Positions 37,565 to 63,935 of a stretch of DNA of 64,000 nt are shown in pieces. Below the pieces are notes generated by a model. The model worked only from the letters and a program-made list of their open reading frames with translations. It did not search any database and was not told the origin of the DNA. Position 1 is the first letter of the stretch. Each line of letters opens with the position of its first letter. Both the position numbers and the translations under genes were made by a program. Where the stretch lies: contig NC_092674.1 of NCBI RefSeq assembly GCF_964355755.1, positions 24,578,001 to 24,642,000 of the forward strand, given 5' to 3'. The DNA is from Antedon mediterranea. Its lineage: Eukaryota > Echinodermata > Crinoidea > Comatulida > Antedonidae.

Positions 37565-37658
37565 GTTCTCCTGGCACAAACTTTGATAGTAGGTTTAAGT
37601 ATGGCGGGGCAACGACATATTGTTGCTGTTGCATTTTTCTTTCTAGTCCTACATCTTG
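37565..37658 (+). CDS. Receptor exon 1: 5'UTR end and signal peptide
   Basis: The exon begins after CTACCAG; ATG is at 37601 and the exon ends at 37658 before GTAAGT (phase 1). It encodes a classic signal peptide: MAGQRH, then the hydrophobic run IVAVAFFFLVLHL, with cleavage likely just after in exon 2 (VSG). The ATG is the only one that gives this leader. Confidence 0.85.
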
Positions 37659-40600
37659 GTAAGTATAGACTTTTATATTTGATTGGTTCATTTATTTATT
37701 GAAATGTCAATTAATTTTCCATCTTAGTTTTCTGCACTGTACCTAAAAATATATTGCACAAAAAATATGCTTTATTCCTAAAGATAAACACATAAAGTTT
37801 AAAATATAGAAATCTTTTTTGTTTTAGTTTCTGGCCTTGAGTGCCCGTCAGGATGGTATAAATGGAACAATGAGTGTTATTTCTTCAGTTTTTATGGTAT
37901 GAATTGGGAAGGAGCGAGGGGTAGCTGTCAATCAATGAATAGTGACTTGGTTACTATTGATGCTGCAGGAGAAAATGTAAGCCCAACTATTAAATATTAA
38001 TGCTTCTGGTAGGCCGACATTCCACTAGGAAAATTTGTTTGTGCGAATTGAAAGAGTCAGCCTGATGCATGCATATTCATGTTCCCATCTTCCAAATCCC
38101 TCTCTGCGATGAATTCTAGTTTCTTGAGTTTTGATTTGAGCAATCAAGTTTGCCTAGTGGAAAATCGACTTTACCCTTCTTTTTTGACTTCTCAAAAGCC
38201 CAATGTAAGCCATCAGCAACCCACTCCCCCAACCAACCTTTACCATTAGCACCCTTGAAGGTGAACATTTTAATTAATTATTTTATTATTTTACCAACAG
38301 GCGGAGCTAGCCGCACGAGTCGATAAGGGTCAAGTCTACTGGATTGGGTTAATAGACAAGGGAACTGGTAGCTTTGTGTGGAGTGATGGAACCGTTTATA
38401 ATCCAAGCACTGCGTAAGCATTTACTTACAATAAACTCTTTTCATATTGGACACCTTGTTAACATTTTATAGTAGGCCTACTAGGAAACATTTGAAACCT
38501 TTTGAAACAAATATGCTTTAAAGAATCTGTTTTTTTGTAATATTTTACCATACTTTGAAGAAGAAATTCATTACAATTTATTTATAACAATCAAGTTTAG
38601 CTGGCTTTGTAGCTACAATGCATGCTTGTTTACATTCCTAACCTAAATAAACAACAACAAATAAACGACCATATGATATCCAGTTTCCAAAGGATGAAAA
38701 ATGTATTCTTCCGTTAATATTTGATTTGATGTTGTTGATTAATCTTAGCCTAATTCATTTTTTAATAGTGGCTGATGTTCAACTTTATTTCTTTCAAAAT
38801 TGTACTTATTATTTATTCATTTTTTGTTAGGAATTGGGACTCTGGATATCCACGCCAATCATCCGCTGAAACATGTGTTGAATTAATTAATGGATACTGG
38901 AGAGATGAAAACTGTTATCGTGCCCAAAATTACATATGCGCTCGTCCTTTGAGTAAGTAAATAAATAATAAAAATAAAACAGACAAAGTTTTTGTTTCTG
39001 CCTCAAAATAACTGTTTTATTTTTATACATGATCCTGCCTATGCAGCACCTATTTCTTTCCTAAATAAAAAATAAATGTTTAATATTAGAAGGATTGATT
39101 ATTTGACGAGTTGTAGCCACATTAAATTGTTAGGTCAGTCAGGATTTCAACGAATGAAAATATTTCCCCTATTAATGATTGAGAGATTTAATGTACACGT
39201 ATTACCAGTTTGTGGTCCATGGGCTTTTGTATTATTGTATATTAGTTAAAGAGCTTTGTATCTGTAATGCTGTATAAGTACATTTGAATACGAAATAAAG
39301 AATAAATAAATAACTAAACTAAACACTAATTATTCAAACTCAATCACAGGCTTGCATTGAATCCTAGACCTTCCATCAACCATGCAATTGTACCATATTA
39401 AATATCATTATTGTTATAAATTTAAAAACTATTCAACTTCACTTTAATGTCAAATTTTATTTTATATCTTCATCTTATTCATAAACATCCCTTTACATTT
39501 TTATTATTATTGAAAATTATTTTTTTAAATTTTAGCAACATTGGAAAAATGTTCAATCGAAGATGGGTGGAAATCTGGTAGTGATAAATGCTACTTGTAT
39601 GTGTATGATGGACGGACTTGGGACGATGCAGAGGTAACAGTACCATCCAGAAATCGTCTTACTCTTAAGCTCTGTCTATACTATGAAACTATATGTGACA
39701 AAAAAATGTGATGTGCACATATATTGACAGGATGATGTCATATCACTACCATATTTAGGCACTCACACTTTTTTTTTGTCAAATTAGTTTGATAGTGTAG
39801 ACAGAGCTTTACACACACACAGTGTCTATGAAAATTATTCCACACATTTTTGTTTCATTGTATTTGTTTATATAAATTATTTTGAAGCTGTGTTGAGCAT
39901 GCCCAGTGTTTTTTCTTGCAAATATGGTGTTAAAAAATTTATTTCAAATGTAAGGAAAGAAATTCGAACCTCATTTTTAGTGTACCCCTGCACATGTGTA
40001 TGACCATGTCGTCAAACACAACATAGCGTAGATCTCTCAAAATTCTGAAAAATATTAAAACGGTTTAGAGTGAGTAGCCAATCACAGGTAGCTGAAACTA
40101 GTCAGTCAGATAATCGTATGCACATCGTATGGTATCAAAACATGTGACATGTACGCATCTGCCTAGACTGACATTATGAGCTCAATTATTATACGTAGGA
40201 AATGCCATATGTGCAAAATTTATCTTTTTTGCTAATAATATTAATTTGAATCATGGCCTACAAACCTAGTCTTGATACGATATTTACATTTTTTTAAAGG
40301 ATTACTGCGTAGGCCTGGATGGACACTTGGTATCAATAGATAGTGAAGATGAACACCAAATCATCAACCAAGTAGTTCTTTATAAGAACGCCTGGATTGG
40401 ACTCTCAGATAAGGTTAGTATTGTCCGCATCCCCACAAGAGCCTTAGATATATTGTCCCCTGAAAAAAATAATTTTTACAATATTTTTTGGCTGAATATG
40501 CCATTTCAATGTCACATAATGGTTATTCACTTTGACCAAAAATTGACTTGAAAAAAATGATTATTCCCCTGAAAAAACTTTAATATATAGCAATTCCAAT

Positions 40601-43600
40601 AGGCTTTTGGTTGAATTTAACCATTTATTTGTCATTTTATAAGTGAATACATTATTTTTTCAGGATTTTTTTCTACGGAAGTGATTAACTTTTTAAAACT
40701 ACAAAATGACGATATTGTATGATTATTATGTAAATGGAGAATAACTTGTCCCTTCGTGTCTGTTTGTCTGTCCACAACGATGGGAGAATGGAACAGTACA
40801 GGGTAACCCCCTACTCTTCCGAAAGATGTACTGGGTTCTTTAAAAGTGCACACAATCCAGATGAGTACACTGGACCTCCAGTTTTAAGTCCTTATCCGAG
40901 AAGACTTGTTTTACCACCAGAACTAAATGGTCGAGGAGTGTTTTGAACCTGTGCCGATTGTATAGCTATGGTTTGCAGCGCCCCTGCCTTAACTGCCCAG
41001 TGACTTGACATGTGCATAATGAAATTGAATCTTAATTGTCCCTGTAAAAATAACAAAGAAACCTGGTATGTTGCATGAGAGACAGGATTGTTGCCCATGT
41101 GACTCATTGTACCAAGCAGACTATCAATTGTTTGTATTTTTTCCAGGATTCTGATGGCGTGTATGAATGGATAACGGGAAATAATACCCTTTATTCAAAT
41201 GATACATGGAATGTTGGACAACCTGATTCAGCGGCGTATGTGGTTTTATTTATTTTTGAAAGTTTCTTATGCATTCTAGTAATGTATTTAAAAATGCTGC
41301 AATTGGGGTGGGGGAGAATGAAGCGGACACGGTAAAGTCCAATTGCCAAAACAATAAGCTAAAGCTACACTATCAAACTTTATGACATAAAAATGTGATG
41401 TGCCCATACATGGACATATTTCACAACCATATTTGGGCACATCACAACCATATTTGGGCACATCACACTTTTTTTGTCAAACTAGTTTGATAGTTTAGAC
41501 AGCTATAGTTTTACATACCGTATTGTATTATTTTGATTTGTAGAGGTAAATGTGTCGAGATTGTGAATTTGGCAGGTGGAAACTCGGGAAAATGGAGCAC
41601 AGCTATGTGTGATAGCAGACAACCATTTGTTTGTGAACGAGGTCAAAGTATGTAAATATTACTTTCTGCTTGTATATATATATAAATCCAAAGGCAAATA
41701 ACTGAAAAAAATGACAATGCTGTGGGTATCAGTAGCTGGATCTCAATGGAGATACAAAAAAAAAGCAAAAAGCTAAATCAAAACGATGAAGTAAAATAGC
41801 CAGAAAGGTTAGCAGAGCTTTCGAGCAAAACTAGTCCTTCATCAGTGCAAGTGTATTGTGTGCCTGTATATATATATATATATATATATTAGGACAGGGC
41901 CAAAATGAAGTGATTGAACTTGTGGGGTCATAAAGCCTAATGGACTGATTAACAACATGGGTTTTTTTTTAAAAAGATGCACTTTTATAAGTGCACATGA
42001 TCTGGGTGTGTACAACGTACCTCAAGTTTAACATCCTTTTCCAAGAAGACTCTACAACCAGAACTTTTGAATCTGTGCCACAAACTTCACAAAACACTTT
42101 TTTTGTTATTTTTGTGTCTTAATGTTGTGTGTGATTTAGCCTAATTTCACTACAACCATGTGTATGCGAATTTGGCTTAATGTTTACGTAACCAGCCTTT
42201 CAACTAACAATAGTTTCAGTTGACTAACAATAGAACAGCAACGGCAAAAACAAACAGGTGAATTTGAAAAGAAATAGGTTTTTTATAACTAATCGTATCA
42301 AAAAACCTGTATATTAAATCAAATTATGTCTTAAAGCTCAGGTACAGGCATGAATTTTAAATATAATATTTGGTTAATTGTACATAAATCAAATATTTGT
42401 AACAGAAATCGAGACGAAAAAACATGAATTTCCCTTAATATGGTCAAATACAAAATTTGGCAAAATTCTTCCATAAAAACCAGGAAGACTTTTTTTCAGT
42501 AGTTAGGTAGTTAACCTAATGTAATAACATTTCTGGTGACTCCCTAGACGGTGAAAAAAGATGGTGGATATACGGTGGATAATTTTTGCTATAGCATGAA
42601 AATAAAAATCTGAAGTTGAATAAAAATATCAGAAATGTAATATTCTAGTTATATTACCTATATTTAGTCATCTGATAATATTTTTTACCACACCATTTAT
42701 TTTTCATAGCTTTCTAAAATGCCTCTCTATTTACAAAATTTGTGTACAAAAGAATAGAGATTTTACTGTGTAATTGAACTATCCCCCCACTGATATGAAA
42801 GTGCTTACTTTCAACAAGCTCGTGTAACACAAATAAAATCCCAAAAAATTATGAAACATAGGGGAAAGGGGAAACTGTAGATCGATAATTATTGGAATGT
42901 ATGATCAATAGAAATTTTTTGCCCGCACCTGGCCTTTAAAATTACAAATCACAAATTATAACTCTTGTCTCTTGTACAAGAATGAAGTACCGTACTTCTT
43001 GAGAAAATGCAATTTCAAACAAACAGAAGATTGACTACATGTACCTCCTTGGTACATTAATAATTCATGTGATATAATATTATGGATAAGAGTCAACAAT
43101 AAATGTCTCCCAACCAGTCTTACATCTACAGTAGCCTTGTCCTTTAAAAAGCCTTATATCATTGTAGTTTACACATTTGTCTACACTTTTTATTTGTGGC
43201 CGCCCTGGTCTTGGTAATGACTGACAATCAAATCTATGATTTCACTTGTTTAGTTCCATGTTATCCTGGATGGAAAGGCTATGGTGGGAATTGTTATCAG
43301 TTCAATTCCAGGTCAGATACATGGATTGATGCTAAGACCGTGTGTGATGCACAGGGAACACTACTCCTAACAATTAAGAGGTAATATTATTCCGTGGGAA
43401 CTGTAATTTTATTTTTTTGATCTGTCTATCTGTTGCATGTGTGAACTTGGTACACTATTAAAAAAAGAATAGGGAATCATATCCTGGTTTAAAGGTTTTA
43501 AATTTGTATATATAAAAGTATAATCTCTATGCGCTGTGGATTACACTTTGTGTGTTGTTCATTGCCTCGTCCTTCAAATGGGATGTAAAGCCGTTGTTTC

Positions 43601-46600
43601 TGTGTGCATATAGTACACGTTAAAGAACTTGTTAAAGAACTTGGTAAAGAGTAGGATTGTCTTCCTATGTGCTGATCTGGTAGGCGCTGCACTCTTGCTG
43701 CCATGGGCCGGTAGAGCTCCCGATCCGAATTTCTTCAGCTGAGGATGAATTGTAATACATTTAACATTTTTAATGTATTTCATAGCCAAGCAGAGCAAGA
43801 TTTCTTGGTGTCTCAGTTTAGTTACCTAGAAGATATCAATGTTGAAAACATTTGGATTGGTATATCAGGTAAGTTAATCTACCAACAAGGGCTTGTTTAG
43901 AAGCAAAGTTTGTGAACATAACCATACTACTTTTATTTATTTATTCAACTTCTCACTAAGATGTACATTAGTGAAGGATGTGACCAACAGGTCGAAACAC
44001 CTCTAAAACGGTCCAGTCCAAATTGCACAGTGGCTGTGTGTGACAGTGGCTGTGTGTGTTGACTAGTACACCGAGGTAACCCCCTTTTCATCTCGAATAA
44101 AGTACTAGGTTCTTTAAAGTGCACCTGAGCTGGATATGTACACTGGACCTATGGTTTATAGTCCTAATATCTGAGAAGACTTGGAGCGAGAGAGCCTCAA
44201 ACTTTTTTGCCGCTGTTATGGCTACGTGATTATGGTTGCACTGTCCAAACTGCTCGGCCACTCACTCGCTCACTACATTACTACTTGAGGTCTAGTGCAT
44301 ATTTATAATAATGTAACGGATTCTTCACTTGTTGTAGGTTGTTCGTCTGTCGGTCAGGCCGTCAGAGTCGCTATACGGAACGAGGGAAATAAAACTACAT
44401 ACACACATAAATTGGAGTCTTTCATTTATTTCTTCAAACCTGTCAGGCAACCTTCCACCATAAATCAAGAAACAAATAAGTAGAGTAAACGGTCCCACCG
44501 GGTATCGGTAATTAATTAGGCCTGCCCCTTACTGGGCGTCTCGGAACACAGCCGAGCTCCACTATAATCCACAATTATAGAATTACTACAGGTCCTACCT
44601 TCCACCGTACCGATCTCCCAACTATCTTCTACTAACTTTAAAAACACGTCTACCCCACTTGAAACCCGAGCTAAAACTAACTACATTGGGCGAATCATGG
44701 CCATCACATGGCCGTTCCCCATCTATTTCCACCAGCCAATCGGCTTCCATACAGAAGTAGGCCCAGTCGATTATCAAAATGGGGTAGCACCACACCTAAT
44801 TCGTTACAATAATAAAAATAAATTGGGACTCATTGAGTGCATAATGTGTGCCTCTATTGGCTCCACATTACAAATAACAAGTTTTTAATAAAATAAACCA
44901 AAAATAAATGAAAAAATTGGAACTGGACCCAACAAGACACCAACTTAACAACTGTATGATATTTATTTAAAATGGAATTATTTTGTTTATACACAAATTA
45001 AAAAACATTTCCAGGGTTTACTAGTTAATTAAATTTATTTCAAATTTTCTATAAAAATGTAATAAAAAAAATATTACAATAAATTTCTCTCTAAAGCTCT
45101 GTCTACACTATCAAACTAGTTTGACAAAAAAGTGTGATATTCCCAAATATGGTAGTGATATGACATCATCCATATAAGATAAGATAAGATAATTACTTTT
45201 ATTGATCCTCAAAAAGGAAATTCATTGCTCGTCATAATAACAAAGAAAACACAATAAAAACAAATATAGCATAAAACCATTCATATAAAAACATCTAAAA
45301 AATTACAAGATAAAATTATCTTCTTGACTTCCTGTTGTACTGGATGATACCGGAGGGAATAAAGGATTTAGCAAATCGATTTGTTTTCACACTGAGGAGC
45401 CTCAATCTACCACTTGGATTAAGTTGGTCAATGATCACTTTGTGGAGAGGATGAGAGGCATCCTACTATATGGGAACATCACATTTTTTTTTCACATAAG
45501 ATAGTGTAGACAGAGCTTAAGCTATGAAGTTGTTGTAACTCTTTGATAGATACTGCAAAGGATGGTGAACGTGTGTGGGTTGATGGAACCAGTGACACAG
45601 GGTCTTCTTACATGAATTGGCCGAAACGACAATATCCTGAAAATACACCAAATACGATGGATTGTGGCTCCGTGTTTGTTTGTAAGGATTATTACTCTTA
45701 ATGTTGTAATTATCACCGTTAGATAGGTAGGGCTAATTCCAAATCAGTGACGTAATTCAGTGGCCCTCTGAGGCTGAAGGCCTTGAGCATTTTTAGCCTT
45801 TTTCGACATACTTGAATGCCTGTTTTTTCAATGCTCAGGGCCCCTGAGTTTATCCAGTAAGCCCTCACAGCCGTTACTCCACTGGTCCAAATGACACTTG
45901 ATGCATAATTAAGCAATCAAATTACAAGAATACAATCAGGTGTGTTATATAATGTAAAATAATTTAGCATGATATATGTACACTTCTTTACATAGTGTCC
46001 TCTATCGGCCAGTGGGACTATGGTGATTGCTTCAATTCTTATAGCTATGTATGCAAGGTAGCGGCAGGAAGTGCTGTGAAGCCGTACAATCCAGTAGATG
46101 GTACAGTATTTTTATTTCTTCAGATGCATAAGCTCCTCATTGGGGGGTGGACAACATCGCTGAATGCTAGACAGACTACATAGACAAACATATTTCAGTG
46201 ATTTGTTGTGTTCAAATTGCTTCCTTACCTTTTATATGTTTAATTTACTTTATAAAATCACAAAATTTAAATTTCTTCAAGTCAATTTAATTTCGAAATG
46301 TATTACATTGCTGCAATGAGTCTATATAATGTATTACATTGCTGCAATGAGTCTATAGAAGGTATTACATTGTTGCAATGAGTCTATAGAGTGTATTACA
46401 TTGCTGCAATGAGTCTATGTATTTACATGAATGCAGTCTATAGAACATTTTATTTTGTATTAATTTAATAATTAGTTATTGGAGGATGTGATGTTGGATG
46501 GGATTACTATGAGAACAATTGTTACAACATTGACTCTAATGACCGTACCTTTAACGAATCAAAGAGAGCATGCGAGGACATGAACTCCGTGTTGACGAGT

Positions 46601-52600: not shown

Positions 52601-55600
52601 CTGATGAGGAGAGCCTCACTCTGGTGTAATAACAGCTCTTAATCACCAATTCTGATGATTTATGACCCCTTAATCACTGATGTCCAGTGGTACTACTGTG
52701 GAAACTGTACTACTGTACTGTAAAGTGTATAGTTTCCCAATGAAGCAGCTTTTTGTTACAAGGACCCTGCTGTGTGTGTGTAAACAATTCATAACAGGAT
52801 ATCTCATTACAATTTTGACAGGTTAAATGATCTTGGTTCAAAAATGTAAGTTACTTTTACATGTCATGTATTTTTTTTTTTTAAACTAGATCCTTCACAA
52901 GAGTTTTCATCAATCAAAAACCGACAGTTGATTAATGCAGATACGGTCACGATTACAAATGTTGCATCTTGGACAGACTGCGCCTACTTGTGCCTCAATC
53001 AGACAAGTTTCTACTGTCGTTCATTCAACCAAAGGAATACAATGTGTCAGCTTAATAAGATTAATACAGATGATAAAACTCTGGAAAGGCAGCGAGGAGC
53101 TATCTACTATGAACGAAATTCAACATATGGTAATTCAATCAATCATTCCTTTTTTTATAGTGCCATTCCAACAACCATTGCTCATGGCGCTGTAGACGAA
53201 ACATTGAGGCCCGACAAAACGTCTTTACTCGTCGGTGCTGTCTGAGTTGAATCACAAAAAAAAATAGTTGTCTTGATTTAGGTCGTCGCGAGAACTTTAA
53301 ACATGTTTAATTTTCTTCCATATTTTTCGTACAACACTGTCAGAGCTGGCCTTTAGATGTTACACTTTTCAAGAACATGAAAAGGCTTCCCCTTTAATTT
53401 CTGCTATTTCAGGTACCCTTTGTCCACAACTGTGGCTGTGAGTGCGTGAACTAGTACAAAAAGTATCACCCCTTTATGTCAAAGTGCATACAACCTATTT
53501 TGTGTACACATTTTCTTATAATCTTATATTTAATCTGATTTGAATCATAACCTGAGTTTTAAAAGACATTTTTAACTGTTTTAAATCTATATTTAAAACT
53601 ATTTTTTAGATTTGGAGGCTAACTATTGCCGTAACCCTGGTCAAACTCTACCTAAACCTTGGTGTTACTACCATGCTCAGGACGGACATGTTCATTGGAA
53701 CTTCTGTGCTGTGGATATGTGTGATGGTAATTTTAAATCATTTACCTATTTCTCAGATTAAACACTACCCTTCTAGAGTATTTGCATATTTAATTTCATC
53801 TATTTTATATGCATCATTATTGTGTATAAACACGTATAAATATAATTTGTTTAATATAGATTGATTTGAGTTAAGATCATAGGACTGCTGATTCTTGAAG
53901 TTATAATAGTAATCTTGTTTACTTTAGCAGTCCCTGACCAATTCATCTTTATATTTTATTTACATATGGTTTGTTCGTCAAGTAAATAAATTACAAAAAT
54001 CGAAAGATATCGATAAGAAAAACTTTAATATTTTTGTAATGTCACAGATAAAATTGTATTTGTATATTATCAGTTTTTTCTTAAATTTTACCTGTGCAAT
54101 TAAGTTATTTAGTACTGTACTTTCAAGATATGGCCTTTCAAAAAACACCATTTTGATGTATAAATGATTTTAAAATAATTATTTATTATTATGCCATTCA
54201 TTCATTAAATTTTACATTATTAGTATTTCTTGAAAAAATAATATGATTTTTACACTGATTTCAGCTCGAGACGTTGGATGCTACGAAAGTTTAGGTGAAC
54301 ACTATAGAGGTCCTGCCCGTACCACATATGATGGCCAAACCTGCTTAGGCTGGGACAGTCCGTACGTTAATAACTATATTAGTGTTGATGACTATCCAAA
54401 TTCAGGTAATGTTTCATCATTCCTATACATCAATAATTGTTTTTTTCGTAAAAACCTAAAAGAAGTTTTAAGATCCATATGTCTTAAGCTCGGTCTACAC
54501 TCTCAAACTTTATGTGACAAAAAAAATTTGATGTGCCACTATGATGCTCTAAACACTCTTGTCTTACTATCAATAACTATCAAAGAGTTAACAAACAAAA
54601 GATTCTTTATACGATCTTCAATCGATGTCATATCACTACCATATTTGGGTACATCACATGTTTTTTTGTCAAACTGTAGTTTGTGTAGTGTAGACAGAGC
54701 TTTATGTTATCTTCGGAACTGAATGTGGTGAGCGATCCAGCTTTGACTCTCACCATTTGGCTTTTCTAAACTATCAAAGAGTTAACGAATTTTAAATATT
54801 TATTTTACGCACAGGCTTGGATGAGAATTTCTGTCGTAACCCCCGTCCAGAGCGATTCACCTCTCCTTGGTGCTTCCATCTTGACCGGGGTTATGTTGAG
54901 GCAAGGTACTGTGATGTCCCTCAATGTATTGATAGTAAGTTGTACTTATCTTATTTATTAGTATTTTGGCATAAATCTTTGTTGTGAAATTTTACAAAAA
55001 GTAGATAAAAAATAAGAGATGCAATAGAATATAAGATTTGTTCTTTTTTGTTGATCTAATAGATCAAAAGACTAAAAGTGGTACGTGTACAACAACATTT
55101 TGCAAATTTGCTTTGCTTTTAGGATCCAAATGAAATTATTTCAAGATTTGTTCATATACCTGCCTGAATTGTACAATTTGACCTTTGAATGATATTATTA
55201 TTCTGTAACTGAATTAAAAATTGGTATTTATTTCCAGGGAAGTGTGGGTCAGATTGGATATCAGATCCAAAGTCTAATTATTGTTTCAGAGTTTATTCTG
55301 ATTCTTCATCAACTTTTAACGATGCACGTGCTAAATGTAAAGAAGATGGCGGAGATCTTGCTAGTATTACGTCTTTAGATGAGTCAGCATTTATAACTGG
55401 TAAATACAATTTTTTTATTGTTTAGTTTGTTAGGTTGCCTTTACCTATCGGATCAAATTTATTAAATGTAATAAAGTTATTGGGGATTTGTTCAACAGAA
55501 AAGAGTAGAGTATCTAAACTCTGTCTATACTGTCACACTAGTTTGATAAAAAGTGTGATGTGCCCATAGCTTTATTTTCATTAATAGCTAATTTTAGAAA

Positions 55601-58600
55601 AAAACAAAGTTGATACTACCTACCAACTAATATTATACGTACAAACTATGCAGACAAGTTGAGTAACAACAGGGGCACTCTAAACCATAGCCATACAATT
55701 GGCACAGGTTCAAGGCACTCTTAGATCTGGTGGTAGAATAAGTCTCCAGTGTACACTTTCTTTTTTCACTGAAAGTGTAGGGATACTACTACTGGTCCAT
55801 TCTGAACTCTTGTAGGGATGATGAAAAGAAACTATTCAGAGAGACTTTATTCAATGCAACCCACATCACATATATATCATATTTTTCTGGCAGGTCTAGT
55901 TTTCAAGGAGCAGTCTCCATTGTTGTGGGTCGGTATGAATGACCTCTATGATGAAGGTGGCTGGGAATGGACCGATGGGTCACCAGTTGCATTTTTTAAC
56001 TTTGCATTAGGTAAGAGATTTTCTGCATATAGATGATATCTTTATTACATTTAAGTTTGTCATGTTTGGGCTTGTGCCGTCAAGTACAGGTTATATTGAG
56101 AAATTTGTTATTGAAAAAACTTCATAAAGCTGGACGTAAACTAAATGCTCTCAATGGTATTGTGCTTTTCTGCTTGCAAGAAAAACTTCCAAATGTACAA
56201 AAGGCAAAATTTAACTGTGCTGTTTAAACCAAATCTTAATAAATGGGGTTTTGTGTGTGATGCTGTTGATCACTTCCTGTACATGTTCCAATAGATTAAT
56301 CAGCTCATGTGAAGTGCTACACATGCCACTGTCACTCATAGCCAGTGGTCATAACTGGGCTCTCTGGGAGACAGTCACAGACTGAAGTTGTCACCCAGTA
56401 TAAATAATATAATAAATAAATAAAATGCAGAAGGCCAATAATCAATATATTCTTTCACTTTAGGTCAGCCAGATAATGCAGGCAGTGGTCAACACTGTGT
56501 GGTCATCTCGGCAGCAACTTCCTCTGTCGGACAATGGTATGATGAATCATGTGACTCGTCATTCGGACATGTTTGTAAAAAGCTAGGTAGGTTTGTTTAA
56601 AATTAAAATAATGTCAAAATTTGATTTCGGAATAAGCTATTTTGATTTAAATGCAAATAAATGCAGCTATCCAGTAATGATAGTGTTGAAATAAAACGCA
56701 GTTTTTTCTAGCTACTCTTTTGGGTCAATAGACAAGTCTCGCAAAGTGCGACAATTTCTAGTAAAGAATATACTTTATCTATTTTTCAGGGGATGTACAA
56801 ATATATACTACTCTATCACCAACACTTGGTAAGTTTGGTATATTTATTATGTTTTATTTATATGTCACATGTTCAATAATAACAGATTTATAAATAATTT
56901 GTTGATGTCATAGCACCTGGAAGCAGATGTAGTTCCGGATGGACAAGCTATGGAAATAGTTGCTACCGTGTGCAAATTGATCAGACGGACTGGGACCAAG
57001 CACGTTTGAACTGTAAGGAAGTGGAAGCTGATTTAGCATCTGTCCACAGCCAGTCTGAGATGATGCATATATTGTCATCTGTGAATGGAGGTAGGAATAT
57101 AGGATTTTTATAGTATAATGTATTGTTTAACTTCATGAACCTCCAGTTAAGATTAGGAGCTATGTGTGTGTATAAATTTATTTTAATCCTGTTTTGCTTT
57201 CAGCTCAGCACAGCCATTATTGGATAGCTGCTAATGATATTGACGTAGAAGGACAATTCATGTTTGCCGGTAAAAAGTCCAACAGCGAAGGTCAGTTAGT
57301 GTACAAAAACTGGGAAGAAGGTCAACCAAACAACTACGGAGCTGATGGAGAAGACTGTGCTTGTTTACCGTTAGTAGTACACTTTTCAAAAGCTGTTTTT
57401 ATTAGTGATAAATACTAGTTAAAGGTGCCTATCTCAAATGAACATTTTGATAAATGATATCTAACGAAATGTTTTTTTTTTCTTTTTGAAATTCCAGGTA
57501 TAACTTTAATTGGAAATGGAATGATAATAACTGTGCTGCCAAATTCCGTATTCTCTGTGAGGGAATTGGAACATCACCCTACCAACTAGGTATATACAGA
57601 GAATTATAAAATAAATTATATTCATTAAAATACAATTTGATATAATCTGTTAATATAAGTAAGATTGGTAAAATAAGTAAAATTGGCAGAAATATTTAGT
57701 TGGTTTTGTATATCATTCATTTTTTATTCGTTTAGGCAAGTTCACTGCATTCAAAGTTGAACGAACTTGGGCAGATGCTGAGCTGTATTGTCAGAGTCAA
57801 GGAGGCAGCCTGGCAACCATTACCAGCCAATCGGAGCAAGACTCGGCTGCTCAACTTCTCACTAATATATATGATCCCTATGGTATGTTACATTTGGTTG
57901 TGACATTGTATATCTGAAGGTTTATATAAAAGTTGATGGTTGGTATGTAAAGTAATGTCTATCACTCACCACATCCACCCACCGTGCCTCCTCCCTCTAT
58001 TTCCCTAAAAAAACAAAGTTTTTGGTGAATAATAATTTATAGAATGTTACTGCCTAAAAATGTCAAGTCGTACAGCAAGTAACTTGCCTACAAAATAGAT
58101 AATCTACATCATGCTAAATAAACTATAAGGAATTTGAGAGGCTAAGAAGTGGAGAAAAACAGTCGTGAGTCACAACCCTGGCCTGGCATTAGGTCTAGTA
58201 TTTAACCCTTGGAATTGGGAGGGAAGGTACAGCTTCACTACAATGGTTTGTGGAGATGATTTTTCTCTCTGGCTTCCCATAAAAGTCCACGAATATGAAG
58301 TGATACAGTATACTAATTGCTATAAATTGTTTTTCCATCAACAGAGGTTGATGTTTATTGGTTTGGATCAAACGATATTGCAAAGGAAGGAACCTGGGTA
58401 ATGGGTGGCTCGCCCGATAGTACAGACTTTCAGGTCTATACACACTGGTACGGAAATGAGCCTAACAATTACAAGTTTCCAGGCGAGGATTGCGTCATGT
58501 TAGTGTAAGTGTCTACATTTTAATTCATTCCATATCAATTTGAAAATTTTATTAAATGCATTATACAGATAAAAAAAAATGTAAAAAACTGTAAAAATGA

Positions 58601-61600
58601 AATCACATAAATAAGGTTTTTAATACATCTACTAAACTTGACATCATGGAACATCAGGAATCTTTTGAATGTCATGAAAATTGACTCGATAGTGCACTAT
58701 TAAAATCTCCCTGTTGCAGCTGGAGTTGGCGAACTAGGCCAAATCATTTGCAGTATTAATGAATAATGTATATAATTAGGCCTATTATATATTGTTTTTT
58801 ATCCATTTTTCTGTGTGTCATGTTTTAGATCTTCTGAAGAAAATAAGTTCAAATGGTACGATACTACATGCTCAAATGGCGAGGGTTATATTTGTGAGAA
58901 TATCCCAGGAACACCCAAGAACCCAAAAGGTACGAACAGAAATAAAGGAAAAGCTTTAATAATTTTATTTGAAATTATAATAATTATAACAATAATATTT
59001 TTTTTTTTTTTTTCAATAACTTTTATTTTCTCCTTTTATCAAAAACATTACACTCAACAGAACGAAACAAAAAAGAAAACCAAAGACGTTTGAGGACGTC
59101 ATATTATCTCAATCGTCATTCTCTTTTTTCATTATCTCTTTCAATGTTTGATATACCACAAATACCTCATCATAATCATTTCTTAAGTTAAACCAGGCTA
59201 TAATAACCCCTTGTCGATAATGATTACATTACAACTCTTATTCCTTAATTTAGTTTACAATACGTTTTTGATATGGACATTATACTTATTTCAATTTTTT
59301 GCAATATTATTCTCCACAGTTTCTGTAAAAAGTACCCATTACAACAATAATATGTATAACAGTAACAATTATAATAAATAATAATAACAGTAGTAATGAC
59401 AATAATAACTATAGTATGATAACAACAATTTTACATTTTTAAATGTTTTATATGTTATGTTTGTATGATGTAGTATGTTTAAGCGGATATTAGCCCTTGA
59501 TGGCATTTGCACCAATAAAGAAATTGAATTGATATTTTTTCTTATTTATAAAGTTTTATATTGCTATTCCTCAGCATATTTACTAAAGCGGGTACAATTT
59601 ATAAATTGAAATCTGCAAAAATACAATCAATTCTATTTGAAAAACAGCGTAGTCTTTTGGTGCACTGATTTAGGTAGGTGCTGCACTGCTCACTGCCGTG
59701 GATCATTTGAGTGCCTACTCCATGTTTTCTCAGTGTCCAGTTAAGCTTGACTAAGGACGATAATAAATACCTTTAACCAAGTAATTTATGCCAAAAAAGG
59801 AATCTAAATTACTAAAATCATCCATATGATATCATGTATTGATTTGCCATATTCTAAATAGGCATTGTATTTCACAATATAGCAAAGTTAATTGGTGGTA
59901 TATTTTGTGTTTTAGGATTAATGTATAGTGTACATATGGATCTTAAAACATGGGAAGATGCGGAAACCTTCTGTAGAGATAACGGAGGAAGACTGGCGTG
60001 GGTTTTAGACCAGGATGCCCAGGATTATATTGAATCACTTATATTATCCGCAGAGAATGGATGTTAGTATTTTTCTTATGATCTTGAATTTTATGGTAGC
60101 TTGTCACTGGTGATAGTGACTGGTCACTGGTGATGGTGGCTGGTCACTGGTGATGGTAGCTGGTCACTGGTGATGGTGGCTGGTCACTGGTGATGATGGC
60201 TGGTCACTGGTGATGGTAGCTGGTCACTGGTGATGGTGGCTGGTCACTCACAATTTACTCAAATCGAAAATGTCCTATTGTTGGTTGTAGTACCAATATT
60301 GCATAGCTAATTTTGTTATGTTATTGTTAAATGTGATGGTGACGTATGGGCATTTTATGAAACAGCATTGTGGAACATGAGAAAAGGACACTATAAATAG
60401 CAAAATACAAACAAAATACCATACCATATTTTCTCTCAAGATATCTTGAAGAGTCCTGGAGTATGGCTTGGTCTAAATGACCAGACTTCACAGATGAGCT
60501 TCCAATGGTCTGATGGCTCAGATGTGACATATACTAACTGGAACCACGATGAGCCTAACAATTGGGCTGGGGCATCAGAAGACTGTGTGTTTGCCTATAC
60601 ATCGGTAAGTCAACAATATCACTCATTTCTAAATTAATGTATGGTATTTCTATATCTTATACGTTCTTTGTAACCATTCTATGATCCATTCAGAGCCTTG
60701 CATCTGATGATTGAGGAGATATTTTATCTCTTCTATCTGTTGGGTAATAAACTGTTCAAGCTGTAACTTTCTGCGTCAGTGCCATGAGCACTTTTTTTTC
60801 TTCATATATGTTAAAGAAAATTACATAAATATATAAAATATGTTATGTAGACCATTAATTATCATTTTCCTATGTAAGCTCTTCATTTCAACTAGCAGTT
60901 GTTGCTTTTTGAGTCTTTTTATACCAATTAAATAAATAGAAAATAAAATACACAGCTTCTTTAAATGCTTCTCAATTTACCTAGACTGGTGTATTTGACA
61001 CTGGGCACAAGTATTATGCTGGAAAATGGAATGACCAAAACTGCGAAGACAGCTTTTTCGGTTATGTGTGTAAAAAGCCAAAAGAGGTTCTTCCAATAAC
61101 ACTGGTTCCACCTACATCTTCTGGTTGTCCATTTGTAAGTGGCTATGTGTTTTACGATTTTCTTATATTCAGATTTTGGGTTATCCTCTAAGCTCTGTAC
61201 ATAAACTAATAAATAAAAGGGATTCCAACCATGCAAACAAAATAATCCAAACCAAAGTCAGGGAATATGCCTTTCGTCGCTAACCAGGGATCGGTCTAAT
61301 TGAACCCTGGTCAGCACCAGTTTTGCCTCGGTCATCCCGGACTCGGGCGCCTCCTGCCTTACTTAAACTAGATCTAAAACAATCTAGGTGGCATGGGGAA
61401 AAAAAGAGGATTGCTTTATTTAACAAGTATGTCTTAAGAAGCCTCTTAAAATGAGCCTGCGTCTGTGCAATACCGTTATTGCCCTGAAATTGGTTTGTAC
61501 TAATTGTTGATGTTGACTTTCTAGGGGTGGAAAGGTTATGGTACATCGTGCTACTTCTTTGATTCTACAGCACAGAGCTGGGATGATGGTAGGAATAAGT

Positions 61601-63935
61601 GCCAACAGAACCTGCAAGCTAACATGGTTTCCATTTCAAATAGGTAGGTCGTACGTGTACTGTAGGCTTACTTTCTTCATCGCCATAAGATAATATAAAT
61701 TTATTTCGTCCACAAAAGAAGTGGAAATAATGGTGCTTGTCTCATACAAATATAAAACAGTAATGGAAACACAAATATCAAAACAATTCTATCCTAACGT
61801 TTCACAGTCACAATATTGCTTATAAAGAGACAGTGACTGTGTGTATACTAGTAAACTGGGGTAACCCCCTACTTTTCTCGAAAGATGTACTAGGTTCTTT
61901 AAAGTGCACATGATCATTGGACCTACTGTTTATAGTCCTTATGTCAGAAGACTACCAATGGGGTAAAGCTATACTATCAAACTTTATGTGACAAAAATGT
62001 GATGTGCCCAAATATGGTAGTGACATGATGTCATGTGTCCATATATTTTTTTCTCACATTAAGTTTGATAGTGTAGCTCTTACTCCATAGTTCAGAGCTC
62101 TAGTGAGCCTCGAACCCTTGCCAATATTATAGATTGTACACTTTTTGATTTCAAGCTTTCCTTGTCATAACAGTCAAATTGTCATTTTTATACTTGAATG
62201 AACACAGATTTGAACAGGCTTTCATAACAGACCAGTTATCCAGTTTACATTCGTGGTACTGGACAGGCTTCAATGACAAGAGTGCGTCCGGAACCTACAA
62301 GTGGGACGATGGAACACCTGTCACTTACACCAACTGGGATCAAGGACAACCAAACTGTACGTCTTGATTCCCATATCTGTAGTATATTAAAGATATATTG
62401 TCCCCCTGAAATTGTTTTGTTGATTATGTCATTTTAATGTTACATAATAGTTGTTCACTTTGACCAAAAATTAGATCGAAAAAAATAGTTTGGCTACCAG
62501 CCAAATTAACAATTTTGAAAATCTATAGCGATGCCTGGTAGATTGATCTAACACAGCTGTATCTACTTTACACATGTAAGAGTGTACCTTTCTAACTAAG
62601 TACAGTAAAGTTTTTGGTTCAGCGATTACATTACGTTAAGCGTTACTAGGTAAGATTTATCCTGGGAGATATCCATGAAAGAATATGTTACATTTGTGTT
62701 GAATGAAGAATGGGTATAACATATTCCACTGTGTGTTTCAGCTGCTGGTGATAGCAACTGTGTTGCTCTGGTAACTAGCAAGCCTGTAGGATTCTGGGAT
62801 GACATGTCATGTGAATCTAATATTGGCGTTATTTGTGAGAAGCCACGTGATGGCTACACAAAGCCACCAATGGTGACAACACAACCATCTGATGTGGACT
62901 GCCTGGTGGGATGGACAGGGTACGGTTCACATTGCTACCAGGTAAGCTTTATTCTGAGGAATATCGTTTGGGGCCTAAAGCTTTGTTCCCACTAGAGACG
63001 CAATGCAAGCGAGTTGACGAATGACAAGCGACAATTCGAATTATCCATCGCTTGTGATTGGTCAAATTGCTTAAGTTGCTTTCTAGTGGGAACCATGCTT
63101 GACAGATCAGCACCCCGGGAGACGATCCCTACTCTTTTCGAATACTGTACCAAGTTTTTTACAATGCACTATACATAGGACTCAACGGTTTATGTCCTAT
63201 CCAAAGGATGAGGCAATGAGTATACAGTATCTTGCCTAAGGATACAATCAGTATGGTACAGATAGGCTCGAACCCATGCCTATCACATGCTAGTTCAATA
63301 TTATCATTACACCATTACTGTCAGGTCTATACAGCACCCGACATCCAGAACGCAACAAGTTAATTTGTTTTTTCAGGCTGCAGTGATACCACAAGACATA
63401 AGGTTATCATGGGAAGAGGCGCTAGATGTTTGCAGAAATATGGGTTCAGAACTCGCTAGTTTCCACAGCAACCAGGAAGAAGAATGGGTAAAATCATCAG
63501 TTAAAACTGAATACAATATGCAAGTTGTTTTTTCTTTATTATTTATTAATATGTATCAGAATATAGATAATTAGCTTTAGACATTTCTTGAATATACAGT
63601 AGAATCACGCCGTTTGGGACACCCATTATTAAGAAGACACTTGTGAAAATAATGAGGAAAAATAGATGTTTTAACACTACGTATACTTTAGAGTACTAGT
63701 GGATTAAAGGGACATTTTTTGGGTGTCATGAAGGTTTCCCTTTAATAGAGGTTTGTGTGTTTTTGTGAAGTATTATTGGGTTAAAAAGTAAGGTGAATTA
63801 CTATTGAAGTAATTTGCATAAAACATAATTGGCAATATGGTTAGAAAGAGCAGTATCATCATTATCTTAATTATGGTTTTTTTTTCAGGACTGGAAACTT
63901 TTGGATTGGTTTGAATGATCGTGATGCTGAAGAGC
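37601..63935 (+). CDS. Giant CTLD-kringle-PAN receptor, mannose-receptor-like (partial, 43 coding exons)
   Basis: Forty-three coding exons join in frame for 5,581 nt, about 1,860 codons, and the gene continues past the right edge. Order by residue: signal peptide 1-19; CTLD1 20-147; CTLD2 148-282; CTLD3 283-431; CTLD4 432-572; kringle 1 573-651; kringle 2 652-733; kringle 3 734-815; kringle 4 first half 816-853; PAN-like 854-933; kringle 4 second half 934-972; kringle 5 973-1059; CTLD5 1060-1193; linker 1194-1206; CTLD6 1207-1351; CTLD7 1352-1487; CTLD8 1488-1641; CTLD9 about 1639-1766; CTLD10 from about 1783. Every exon pair has matching phase, a strong check on the model. Multi-CTLD proteins of this kind bind glycans at the cell surface. 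Here kringles replace the ricin-B and FNII head of vertebrate mannose receptors. A membrane anchor, if any, is outside the window. Gene-level identity is inferred. Confidence 0.85.
37828..38952 (+). CDS. CTLD1 (exons 2-4)
   Basis: Exons 37828-37976, 38301-38413 and 38831-38952. Fold landmarks are ECPSGWYKWNNECYFF at the start (long-form, with the extra N-terminal Cys pair), VYWIGLIDK, FVWSDG, ETCVELI, WRDENC and YICARP. No EPN or QPD tripeptide is present (SGYPRQS instead), so calcium-dependent sugar binding is unlikely in this domain. Confidence 0.85.
39536..41647 (+). CDS. CTLD2 (exons 5-8)
   Basis: Exons 39536-39633, 40300-40413, 41147-41235 and 41544-41647. Landmarks are CSIEDGWKSGSDKCYLY, TWDDAE, AWIGLSDK, YEWITG, a QPD tripeptide (galactose-type), KCVEIV and FVCERG. 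The usual WND is WST, so calcium site 2 may be weakened. Confidence 0.85.
39668..39811. repeat. Palindromic MITE, copy 3 (intron)
   Basis: AGCTCTGTCTATACTATGAA at left and TTTGATAGTGTAGACAGAGC at right; internal GATGATGTCATATCACTACC. Confidence 0.8.
40443..40708. repeat. MITE, TTTAAAGATGTATTG family, right end lost (intron)
   Basis: Starts TTAGATATATTGTCCCCTGA; internal GAATATGCCATTTCAATGTC and TTGGTTGAATTTAACCATTT match the family. The right inverted repeat is missing and another repeat follows. Confidence 0.65.
40775..41035 (+). repeat. GGGTAACCCC repeat family (intron)
   Basis: Good copy: GGGTAACCCCCTACTCTTCC, AGATGTACTGGGTTCTTTAA, AGTGCACACAATCCAGATGA, CCTTATCCGAGAAGACTTG, TTGAACCTGTGCCGATTG and GCCTTAACTGCCCAGTG. 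Related copies are at 44060-44290, 55665-55810 (inverted), 61840-62115 and 63105-63305, with partial copies at 41965-42075 and 3870-4030. Class unknown. Confidence 0.7.
41360..41507. repeat. Palindromic MITE, copy 4 (intron)
   Basis: AAAGCTACACTATCAAACTT at left and AACTAGTTTGATAGTTTAGA at right, with ATTTGGGCACATCACA twice inside. Confidence 0.8.
41682..41845 (+). repeat. Interspersed repeat shared with 25076-25265 (intron)
   Basis: AAAAATGACAATGCTGTGGG, TATCAGTAGCTGGATCTCAA and CTAGTCCTTCATCAGTGC. A TA run follows at about 41870-41890. Confidence 0.7.
41965..42080 (+). repeat. Partial GGGTAACCCC-family repeat (intron)
   Basis: AAGTGCACATGATCTGGGTG, TCCAAGAAGACTCTACAACC and TTGAATCTGTGCCA match the family in order; the left end is missing. 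Confidence 0.5.
42081..43253. other. Rest of intron 8, nothing recognised
   Basis: AT-rich intron sequence. No exon with CTLD features, RNA gene or clear repeat seen. The acceptor of exon 9 is TTGTTTAG at its end. Confidence 0.5.
43254..46100 (+). CDS. CTLD3 (exons 9-12)
   Basis: Exons 43254-43380, 43786-43868, 45550-45681 and 45996-46100. Landmarks are CYPGWKGYGGNCYQF, TWIDAKTVC, IWIGISD, VWVDGT, YMNWPK, MDCGSVF, GQWDYGDC and YVCK. The EPN/QPD position is replaced (QYPENTPN region), so sugar binding is doubtful. A Val/Lys/Pro linker follows (GSAVKPYNPVD). Confidence 0.8.
44060..44290 (+). repeat. GGGTAACCCC repeat family (intron)
   Basis: GAGGTAACCCCCTTTTCATC, AGTACTAGGTTCTTTAAAGT, ATATCTGAGAAGACTTGGAG and CTGCTCGGCCACTCACTCGC. 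Confidence 0.65.
44335..44900. other. Compositionally unusual intron block
   Basis: About 560 bases are richer in C and CpG than the neighbourhood (GTCTGTCGGTCAGGCCGTCA, CCCACCGGGTATCGG, CATGGCCATCACATGGCCG). An AATAAAA lies early in the block. It could be a decayed LTR or other retroelement piece, but no termini or coding frame could be fixed. Confidence 0.4.
45092..45520. repeat. Palindromic MITE, copy 5, split by a LINE tail
   Basis: Left arm CTAAAGCTCTGTCTACACTA to GACATCATCCATATA (45092-45176); right arm TATGGGAACATCACATTTTT to ATAGTGTAGACAGAGCTTAA (45469-45520). The insert between them is a LINE 3' end. Confidence 0.8.
45177..45470 (-). mobile_element. LINE 3' end nested in the palindromic MITE
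   Basis: Read on the minus strand the piece ends in a (TTATC)n tail (plus strand AGATAAGATAAGATAA at 45177-45192). Before it is the common LINE 3' motif, TTTTATTGATCCTC followed by AAAAAGGAAATTC on the plus strand. The upstream part (GTTGTACTGGATGATACCGG, GAGGAGCCTCAATC) matches C-terminal polyprotein and UTR sequence in style only. It is 5'-truncated and interrupts the MITE, so it is younger than the MITE. Confidence 0.6.
46300..46420 (+). repeat. 31-bp tandem repeat, four copies (intron)
   Basis: Units begin GTATTACATTGCTGCAATGA at 46300, 46331, 46362 and 46393, exactly 31 bases apart. Confidence 0.9.
46476..49046 (+). CDS. CTLD4 (exons 13-15), canonical mannose-type site
   Basis: Exons 46476-46634, 47304-47386 and 48866-49046. 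Landmarks are GCDVGWDYYENNCYNI, SKRACEDM, FYIGLTDK, FVWIDGSP, FTNWKKDEPND, EDCVEI, MWNDIPC and GMICKK. EPN and WND are both intact, so this domain has the complete calcium-2 signature for mannose, fucose or GlcNAc binding (family knowledge). A Thr/Pro linker (HPPTNP) leads to the kringles. Confidence 0.9.
46640..47300. other. Intron 13: unclassified repeat pieces
   Basis: 46780-46990 contains CCCGACACAGGGGC, ACGGTTTCCGTGAAGATAAA and CTTAATCACTCGGCCATTTG, which look like an interspersed repeat. 47120-47190 (CAACCCTATTAAGGGGACAC, GTGTCACCTTAATAGGGG) resembles 63600-63770 in motif order. Neither is classified. Confidence 0.4.
47445..47870 (-). mobile_element. LINE fragment, C-terminal reverse-transcriptase region (intron)
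   Basis: On the minus strand 47839-47624 encodes 71 residues of the type found near the end of CR1/L2/Jockey-like polyproteins: TLWCNYNQGTLRSLQVCYNN, GLRMLLQRPRHCSASLMF and PSFYELLRISIYGLMCRLN. The 3' end runs to an (AATG)n tail at 47445-47460. It is 5'-truncated and shows no recent features. Confidence 0.7.
47918..48515 (+). repeat. 23-bp minisatellite in intron 14
   Basis: About 25 units of GGAATAGTATGTTTACCATA plus AAT, with variants GAAATAG, TATATTTACC and TTTATC and units shortened by a few bases. The 23-base period is the same as in the unrelated array at 35.9-37.0 kb, probably by chance. Confidence 0.85.
49385..49520 (-). mobile_element. LINE 3' tail (same family as 34.9 kb), intron
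   Basis: AAGTACAATTTTTCCTGGAG, CAACAATAGGCATACAGTAA and CTGATCTTGCTCCAAC align with 34890-34980. Only the 3' untranslated end remains. Confidence 0.5.
49697..50265 (+). CDS. Kringle 1 (exon 16 and first part of exon 17)
   Basis: Exon 49697-49822 gives the first half (GCYDDDGSHYRGNAQIT, LCESWDG, SYPNA). The start of exon 50164-50415 gives the second half ([28 protein letters not shown]). All six kringle cysteines are present. The half boundary is phase 1. Confidence 0.85.
50266..50746 (+). CDS. Kringle 2 (rest of exon 17 and exon 18)
   Basis: The rest of exon 17 (to 50415) gives DCYEGDGMTYRGTASKTEDG, TCYNWDHLDP and NNPYA. Exon 50642-50746 gives LDSNYCRNPSGSRRPWCYT and YCDLPKC. Exon 17 fuses the end of kringle 1 to the start of kringle 2 without an intron, unlike the other kringles here. 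Confidence 0.85.
50428..50581. repeat. Palindromic MITE, copy 6 (intron)
   Basis: TAAAGCTCTGTCCACACTAT begins only 12 bases after the donor of exon 17, and AACTAGTTTGAGAGTTGAGA ends the element. The insertion has left the donor (GTATGT) intact. Confidence 0.8.
51008..51351 (+). CDS. Kringle 3 (exons 19-20)
   Basis: Exons 51008-51139 (GCYEGNGQNYRGSGSMTEDG, TCAMWKDV, TFPNA) and 51238-51351 (LHENYCRNPTGEDEPWCYY, PCNVPHC). All six cysteines are present and flanking phases are 1. Confidence 0.85.
52027..52140 (+). CDS. Kringle 4, first half (exon 21)
   Basis: GCYDAHGQSYRGKAHTTEEG, SCAYWGEF and EQMFP, ending in phase 1 before GTAATT. It lacks the few residues (NA) that end the corresponding exon of its siblings. 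The second half is not the next exon but the one after the PAN exon. Confidence 0.85.
52141..52889. other. Intron 21, nothing recognised
   Basis: AT-rich, with a poly-T tract before the acceptor of the PAN exon (TTTAAACTAG). No alternative second-half kringle exon is seen here. Confidence 0.5.
52890..53129 (+). CDS. PAN/apple-like domain exon inserted in kringle 4 (exon 22)
   Basis: One exon of 240 nt, phase 1 at both ends, about 80 residues. PAN/apple pattern: a start around SIKNRQLINADTVTITNV, then SWTDCAYLCLNQ, FYCRSFNQ, MCQLNK and AIYYERN. Cysteine spacing fits the four-Cys core of PAN_1 domains, which mediate protein or carbohydrate contacts. Because it is symmetric, skipping it would join the kringle halves in frame. 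Confidence 0.75.
53610..53726 (+). CDS. Kringle 4, second half (exon 23)
   Basis: DLEANYCRNPGQ, LPKPWCYYH, NFCAVDMC. Phase 1 at both ends, homologous to exons 18, 20 and 25. It completes the kringle begun in exon 21. Confidence 0.85.
53727..54264. other. Intron 23, nothing recognised
   Basis: AT-rich intron with no repeat or exon recognised. Confidence 0.45.
54265..54934 (+). CDS. Kringle 5 (exons 24-25)
   Basis: Exons 54265-54405 (GCYESLGEHYRGPARTTYDG, TCLGWDSP, DYPNS) and 54815-54934 (LDENFCRNPRPE, SPWCFHLD, YCDVPQC). Asn-Tyr-Cys is Asn-Phe-Cys, otherwise typical. Confidence 0.85.
54485..54704. repeat. Palindromic MITE, copy 7 (intron)
   Basis: TAAGCTCGGTCTACACTCTC at left and GTGTAGTGTAGACAGAGCTT at right; about 70 extra bases occupy the centre. 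Confidence 0.75.
55238..56586 (+). CDS. CTLD5 (exons 26-28), QPD type
   Basis: Exons 55238-55399, 55894-56010 and 56464-56586. Landmarks are KCGSDWI, NYCFRVY, DARAKCKEDGGDLASI, LWVGMNDL, WEWTDGSP, a QPD tripeptide (galactose-type), HCVVI, WYDESC and GHVCKK. Confidence 0.9.
55512..55563. repeat. Palindromic MITE, copy 8, one arm only
   Basis: TCTAAACTCTGTCTATACTG, TAGTTTGATAAAAAGTGTGA and TGTGCCCATA; the second arm is missing. Confidence 0.6.
55665..55810 (-). repeat. GGGTAACCCC repeat family, inverted copy (intron)
   Basis: ACCATAGCCATACAATTGGC, CAGGTTCAAGGCACTC and CTGGTGGTAGAATAAG match 40880-40970 in reverse complement. Confidence 0.6.
56011..56463. other. Intron 27, nothing recognised
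   Basis: No repeat or alternative exon recognised. Confidence 0.4.
56790..56828 (+). CDS. 39-nt linker microexon (exon 29)
   Basis: Thirteen codons (GDVQIYTTLSPTL) between CTLD5 and CTLD6. Acceptor TTTTTCAG, donor TTG|GTAAGT, phase 1 at both ends, so it can be skipped in frame. Ser/Thr content suggests a glycosylated spacer. Confidence 0.65.
56914..57589 (+). CDS. CTLD6 (exons 30-32), QPN/WND
   Basis: Exons 56914-57090, 57204-57369 and 57498-57589. Landmarks are CSSGWTSYGNSCYRV, DQARLNCKEVEADLASVHS, YWIAANDID, YKNWEEGQPNN, EDCACL, WKWNDNNC and ILCEG. QPN with an intact WND. The donor of exon 31 is GTTAGT. Confidence 0.9.
57736..58929 (+). CDS. CTLD7 (exons 33-35), EPN, short form
   Basis: Exons 57736-57882, 58345-58504 and 58829-58929. 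Starts GKFTAFKVERTWADAELYC without the N-terminal Cys pair of long-form CTLDs. Then SLATITSQSEQ, VYWFGSNDI, WYGNEPNN, EDCVML, KWYDTTC and YICENI. EPN is intact and WND is WYD. Confidence 0.9.
58930..59915. other. Intron 35, nothing recognised
   Basis: Poly-T and TAATAATAA-type low complexity (59330-59400). No exon or known repeat recognised. Confidence 0.45.
59916..61134 (+). CDS. CTLD8 (exons 36-38), EPN/WND, short form
   Basis: Exons 59916-60062, 60441-60604 and 60985-61134. Landmarks are GLMYSVHMDLKTWEDAETFC, LAWVLDQ, VWLGLNDQ, YTNWNHDEPNN, EDCVFAY, GKWNDQNC and YVCKKP. The full mannose-type signature is present. Exon 38 ends in a Pro/Thr linker and the first Cys of CTLD9 (GCPF). Confidence 0.9.
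60088..60248 (+). repeat. 20-bp minisatellite (intron)
   Basis: Seven to eight units of TGGTCACTGGTGATGGTGGC with small changes (TAGC, GATGATGGC). Confidence 0.9.
61525..62860 (+). CDS. CTLD9 (exons 39-40 and most of 41), QPN
   Basis: Exons 61525-61643, 62208-62356 and the first part of 62742-62941. Landmarks are GWKGYGTSCYFF, SWDDGRNKC, WYWTGFNDK, YKWDDGTP, YTNWDQGQPN, NCVALV, FWDDMSC and GVICEKP. QPN with WDD. The N-terminal Cys lies in the previous exon. Confidence 0.9.
61840..62115 (+). repeat. GGGTAACCCC repeat split by a palindromic MITE (intron)
   Basis: GGGGTAACCCCCTACTTTTC, AGTGCACATGATCATTGG and AGTCCTTATGTCAGAAGACT lie before the MITE; AGAGCTCTAGTGAGCCTCGA then ACCCTTGCC lies after it. 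The MITE (61965-62077) therefore inserted into an existing copy. Confidence 0.7.
61965..62077. repeat. Palindromic MITE, copy 9, nested
   Basis: AAGCTATACTATCAAACTTT at left and AAGTTTGATAGTGTAGCTCT at right, inside a GGGTAACCCC-family repeat. Confidence 0.8.
62386..62520. repeat. MITE, TTTAAAGATGTATTG family, left half (intron)
   Basis: TTAAAGATATATTGTCCCCC, GTTCACTTTGACCAAAAATT and GGCTACCAGCCAAATTAAC match the left half of 2175-2519. Confidence 0.65.
62861..63935 (+). CDS. CTLD10, partial (exons 41 end to 43), runs off the window
   Basis: The end of exon 41 (to 62941) holds a Pro/Thr linker (YTKPPMVTTQPSD) and CLVGWTGYGSHCYQ. Exon 42 begins at 63377 (AAVIPQDIRLSWEEALDVC, ELASFHSNQEEEW). 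Exon 43 is 63889-63935 (TGNFWIGLNDRDAEE). No GT donor in exon 42 gives the needed phase 2, but GCAAGT at 63520 does, making a GC-AG intron and a codon ATG at the junction. Exon 43 ends before GTAAGT in phase 1. Confidence 0.75.
62983..63100 (+). repeat. MITE, GTTCCCACT / CGCAACGCAAG family (intron)
   Basis: TTCCCACTAGAGACGCAATG at left and TTTCTAGTGGGAACCATG at right form inverted ends of about 10 bases. Inside, ACAAGCGACA and CCATCGCTTGTGATTGGTCA match 24435-24560. Confidence 0.7.
63105..63305 (+). repeat. GGGTAACCCC repeat family (intron)
   Basis: ACTCTTTTCGAATACTGTAC, TTTATGTCCTATCCAAAGGA and GATAGGCTCGAACCCATGCC follow the family order with a diverged start. Confidence 0.6.
63600..63775. 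repeat. Unclassified repeat in intron 42
   Basis: TAGAATCACGCCGTTTGGGA, CACCCATTATTAAG and GGTTTCCCTTTAATAGAGGT resemble motifs at 47120-47190 (CCTATTAAGGGGACAC, CCTTAATAGGGGTTC). Possibly a DNA transposon remnant. Confidence 0.4.

Follow-up and report, generated by a model that had tools for sequence, protein, structure and literature searches.

Does the 64,000-nucleotide stretch of the Antedon mediterranea genome considered here (the window; C5:24578001-24642000, within a 354 Mb assembly) encode a single very large receptor in which kringles and a PAN domain stand in the midst of a CTLD array, and, if so, how might they have come to be there? The answer favored, with a probability of about 0.85 as judged from genomic sequence, is that one gene encodes CTLD1-4, then five kringles, the fourth of which holds a nested PAN, then CTLD5-14, a transmembrane segment and a tail, and that it is a derived paralogue of 12-CTLD receptors encoded on contig C2.

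Read on the plus strand from a start at 37601, 56 exons form one in-frame ORF of 2,552 residues (7,659 nt, ATG to TAG, zero internal stops) that ends at C5:24662974, position 84974 in window numbering and so past the window's 3′ edge. Exons 1-43 were rebuilt within 37601-63935 from the sequence read for them (37201-64000), and exons 44-56 came from DNA downstream of the window. A first-pass annotation had all 43 exons of the window joining with consistent phase; this held for 42 of them, which join in frame via canonical GT-AG sites, but exon 43 (63889-63935) is in frame only with an exon 42 of 63377-63519 that uses a GC donor (AATACAATAT followed by GCAAGT), and apart from one such GC-AG intron the gene's splice sites are GT-AG throughout. 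Ending exon 42 at the GT donor at 63487 was rejected, as stops then arise in exon 43, and so was joining the last exon without the 36-nt stalk exon that precedes it (83829-83864), as a TAG then appears at the junction. Intron phases 0, 1 and 2 number 10, 37 and 8, and introns 15-30 are phase 1 without exception. The chance log-probability of such an open frame is about -168 at local base composition, and the alternative frames of the exons are open in just 14 of 112 cases. By hydropathy the sole strongly hydrophobic stretches are the N-terminal region and residues ~2496-2526 (19-residue windows starting at 2496-2508). Exon 1 (37601-37658), from its translation and hydropathy, supplies the start codon and signal peptide MAGQRHIVAVAFFFLVLHL, and the short cytoplasmic tail is KKQRRLLEYFRHSTPSDGFEDHIVGEINS. 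With signal peptide and transmembrane segment called by eye and hydropathy rather than by a dedicated predictor, the full-length product is read as a type I membrane protein with one C-terminal transmembrane segment. The DNA sequence is also compatible with alternative promoters or terminators, or with isoforms in which the blocks are apart.

The upstream neighbor is an ORF at 31919-32581 on the plus strand with a YhhN/TMEM86 match (PF07947, 90.9 bits), and a histone-fold TAF ORF (PF02969) lies downstream at about 91860 in window numbering. Repeats in the region include a large 45/128-bp repeat block at 7766-20854, a 23/46-bp minisatellite at 35874-36984 just upstream of the gene, and minisatellite arrays of 23 bp in intron 14 (47918-48504) and 20 bp in intron 36 (60093-60248). 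A dispersed repeat, with the sequences AAGCTCTGTCTACACTATCAAACT and AGTTTGATAGTGTAGACAGAGCTT, recurs in many introns (39640-39810, 41350-41510, 54480-54700 and others) and resembles a small mobile element whose ends are inverted.

Pfam, applied block by block to the joined protein, recovered CTLDs, kringles and PAN alike, with 4 + 3 + 3 + 4 = 14 Lectin_C, five Kringle and one PAN_1 matches, all above the curated cut-offs. The five kringles and PAN-like domain seen at first are thus confirmed, and the initial count of at least ten CTLDs rises to 14, of which 10 begin inside the window. The order is signal peptide, four CTLDs, five kringles with one PAN, ten CTLDs, transmembrane segment and short tail. 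Matches to UL45 and A33R were set aside as cross-matches of the CTLD fold. On joined exons CTLD1 corresponds to exons 2-4 (37828-38952), CTLD2 to exons 5-8 (39536-41647), CTLD3 to exons 9-12 (43254-46100) and CTLD4, with EPN and WND motifs, to exons 13-15 (46476-49046), all on the plus strand as is every feature of the gene given below. EPN, QPN or QPD plus a WND-like stretch is present in CTLD4-10 and CTLD12; CTLD13 and CTLD14 have the altered sugar/calcium motif forms QPV and EPT, CTLD2 has QPD but WSTAMC, and CTLD1, 3 and 11 are without one or both motifs. Because of these motifs calcium-dependent glycan binding is plausible for roughly half of the CTLDs, if not more. A large expansion of matches to the sialyltransferase family (GT29), with at least 150 exon matches on many contigs, was also seen.

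The kringle block follows CTLD4. Kringle 1 occupies exon 16 and the first part of exon 17 (49697-50415), a phase-1 intron splitting the domain, and on joined exons kringle 2 takes up the second part of exon 17 with exon 18 (50164-50746) and kringle 3 exons 19-20 (51008-51351); kringle 5 is in exons 24-25 (54265-54934; 63.7 bits). Kringle 4 is the peculiar one. Its N-terminal half is exon 21 (52027-52140), with cysteines 1-2, and its C-terminal half exon 23 (53610-53726), with cysteines 3-6, and between the two lies exon 22 (52890-53129), a 240-nt PAN exon of phase 1-1 with four cysteines (PF00024, 37.0 bits against a cut-off of 21.4), so that cysteines number two, four and four in exons 21, 22 and 23. 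Joined without the PAN, exons 21 and 23 give one complete six-cysteine kringle (profile 1-79, 57.4 bits). The location that had been given for the kringle block and PAN within the CTLD array was right, but the PAN interrupts kringle 4 instead of adjoining the kringles as a group. The other kringles of the gene have a phase-1 intron at the same place as the kringle 4 split, and plasminogen kringles are split there too. Kringle disulphides run 1-6, 2-4 and 3-5, and therefore neither half of kringle 4 can complete a kringle alone. The split may reflect a nested domain insertion in which a PAN entered at the kringle's own phase-1 intron. As exon 22 is of phase 1-1, the frame is kept whether it is included or skipped; transcripts that retain it would specify a kringle 4 interrupted by the nested PAN, and those without it an intact kringle 4. 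A main mature protein with the PAN folded in the kringle loop, forming a composite binding module that the 240-nt exon possibly makes splice-switchable, is tentatively proposed at somewhat short of even odds. AlphaFold modelled the PAN exon by itself at a mean pLDDT of 50.7, a value too low to base a fold search on. Searches of the open-access literature found neither a protein combining CTLD, PAN and kringle nor a PAN within a kringle.

Exon 22 may instead be a mostly skipped cassette, in which case all five kringles would be intact in the usual protein and the version with a PAN would be a minor isoform or a relic. The frame-neutral length and phase of the exon, and the full six-cysteine kringle formed in its absence, are what such a cassette would show, but with good splice sites, an unbroken reading frame and the four cysteines of its PAN it looks maintained; this reading, itself compatible with the single-gene explanation, is a real possibility though not the expected one. 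A different origin for the split, and for that only, would be loss: two kringles flanked a PAN, and one lost the exon for its C-terminal half and the other that for its N-terminal half. The present order would be identical, and the kringle halves do sit on separate exons; against it, a kringle remnant sought in introns 21 and 22 was not recognizable there (best E 2.9), though decay could hide one, and loss is the unlikely route to the split.

Insight into how the block as a whole arose comes from a search with the CTLD14-transmembrane region, which yielded two related loci on C2, at 10.896-10.916 Mb (C2a) and 5.706-5.731 Mb (C2b). Mapped by domain exons, not as full gene models, each has twelve CTLDs in an array, a PAN that separates CTLD5 from CTLD6, and a transmembrane end, and no kringles. 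The stretch C2 5.703-5.741 Mb carries a tandem of two or more genes and includes, besides the 12-CTLD array, the end of another gene. No description of a family of 12-CTLD, PAN and transmembrane receptors with an FxNxxY-like tail motif was found in the papers searched. A colinear exon chain links the C5 gene to these loci, exons 2-15 matching CTLD1-4, exons 26-28 CTLD5, and exons 39-56 CTLD7-12 plus the transmembrane segment, and the CTLD4/CTLD5 intron reads as phase 1 at both C2 loci. For exons 16-25 there is no C2 counterpart above noise at their place, save that exon 22 has its best match in the PAN after CTLD5. Downstream of the block CTLD5 (exons 26-28; 55238-56586) aligns to CTLD5 of the C2 loci, and exon 29 (56790-56828) encodes a 13-residue linker where the C2 paralogues have their PAN. 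C2a CTLD6 pairs with exon 30 plus exons 36-38: exon 30, resembling its first exon, begins CTLD6 (exons 30-32; 56914-57589), and CTLD8 (exons 36-38; 59916-61134), a short form with four cysteines, corresponds to the remainder. Exons 31-35, that is the rest of CTLD6 and all of CTLD7 (exons 33-35; 57736-58929), also a short form with four cysteines, are without a match in the C2a chain; the C2b chain offers weak matches to exons 32, 34 and 35 within its CTLD6. The chain continues through CTLD9 (exons 39-41; 61525-62941) to CTLD10, which starts in exons 41-43 (62742-63935) and continues in exon 44 (64225-64398).

Because the C2 paralogues align exon by exon yet are without kringles, the block is placed in the CTLD4/5 intron, and an all-phase-1 kringle/PAN exon block would have been shuffled into that phase-1 intron of an existing mannose-receptor-like gene, with the CTLD6 region enlarged by two extra CTLDs. 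Gain of the kringles by exon shuffling is the simplest account of the sequence comparison; their loss from the C2 type instead is less economical. The unusual placement remarked on at first is supported inside this genome. The receptors of C2 share with the C5 gene their exon-by-exon colinear CTLDs, phase-1 CTLD4/5 intron, transmembrane segment and short tail, but have no kringles, two fewer CTLDs, their PAN at another place and an FxNxxY-like tail motif that they keep. Candidate sources of the block abound: split kringles with a PAN at C6:1.09 Mb, among ORFs that were named by eye as LDLa-, SRCR- and trypsin-like; split kringles at C7:14.15 Mb; and a run of at least nine PAN and at least seven kringle exons, with near-identical duplicated stretches, at C1:2.06 Mb (C1:2057001-2077000). 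The C2a PAN is 46-69% identical to minus-strand PANs of the C1 run. The PAN of exon 22 scores 92 against both the PAN of C2a and that of the C6 kringle gene, and is no closer to one than to the other.

Could the gene be simply a canonical mannose receptor orthologue? Its 14 Lectin_C domains exceed the eight expected at least of an MRC array, its topology is type I from hydropathy and inspection of the ORF end, and the best PDB matches of its CTLD blocks are PLA2R, FcRY, LY75, MRC1 and MRC2. Pfam found no ricin-B-type N-terminal CysR, however, CTLD1 coming directly after the signal peptide, and no fn2 (FnII) in the protein; a genome search for FnII was also empty, which is a weak negative. MRC1 has FxNxxY in its tail, and the GFDNALY and GIDNQLY of the C2 paralogues resemble it, but at the matching place the C5 gene has GFEDHIV, so that tail comparison reveals no FxNxxY-type endocytosis motif. 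Because these three defining features (CysR, FnII and FxNxxY) fail, the gene is not classed as a canonical member, and orthology of that kind is improbable. Given the tail difference, internalization is probably unlike that of the C2 receptors. What is shared with MRC1, MRC2, PLA2R1, LY75 and FcRY is the type I membrane anchoring, long CTLD array and short tail; the differences, besides the features lacking, are 14 CTLDs instead of 8-10 and the inserted five kringles and PAN.

That the exon chain strings together two or three neighboring genes has nothing positive in its favor and is highly improbable, as between the blocks there is no start, signal peptide, transmembrane segment or stop, the blocks all meet at phase-1 splice junctions, and on C2 CTLD1-4 and CTLD5-12 are in one colinear array with a transmembrane end. 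The first-pass view that the mosaic is very probably one gene accords with the full-length ORF, the symmetric phase-1 block and the colinear C2 loci.

At the cell surface the receptor may function in recognition or adhesion by binding glycans in a calcium-dependent way, its kringle/PAN block serving in the membrane-distal part as a protein-binding or spacing module. The pairing of glycan recognition with protein binding suggested earlier fares well for the first partner, given the sugar/calcium motifs in many CTLDs, and less well for the second if lysine-type binding was meant. None of the five kringles has, between RNP and PWC, the plasminogen-type DxD lysine-site motif; the sequences there are NGGPL, SGSRR, TGEDE, GQTLPK and RPERFTS, that of kringle 3 being acidic yet not DxD. 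This makes binding via exposed lysine unlikely; protein contacts of the HGF or Kremen type, or a role as spacer, are likelier. The kringles of HGF, too, are for the most part without DxD.

The gene can be regarded as real, and as a derived form of a receptor kind already known. Its interest lies in phase-1 exon shuffling being caught beside near relatives, with kringle-free colinear genes and possible split-kringle/PAN sources in one genome, and so in a mannose-receptor-like gene seen gaining a plasminogen-type module; in addition, the PAN in a kringle is a domain-in-domain insertion that splicing could toggle. Should its expression be confirmed, the gene would widen the range known for multi-lectin receptors of invertebrates.

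The pairing of CTLD and kringle has precedent. A probable second mosaic of CTLD and kringle, with FA58C and of different build, lies at C8:12127001-12177000, where ORFs for CTLD, F5/8-type C, a weak fn3 and kringles of one exon each are in line on the minus strand. A flatworm paper has kringles and CTLDs on separate proteins. In the Manila clam MR set, whose proteins have 1-14 CLECT each, FA58C and kringle domains are reported besides CLECT, and PAN does not figure in the domain list (PMC12321717). The other relevant comparison is with plasminogen and HGF, the best PDB matches for the kringle block, and with the kringle-PAN mosaics at C6:1.09 Mb and C1:2.06 Mb. As in these, kringles and PAN are in one protein (here five kringles of six cysteines each and one PAN), and the C6 and C7 kringles are encoded in two halves just as those of the crinoid receptor gene are. 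Unlike plasminogen and HGF, the receptor is without DxD and has no trypsin-like or pseudo-protease C-terminal domain recognized by Pfam; instead its PAN is nested in a kringle and its kringles are part of a membrane-anchored CTLD array.
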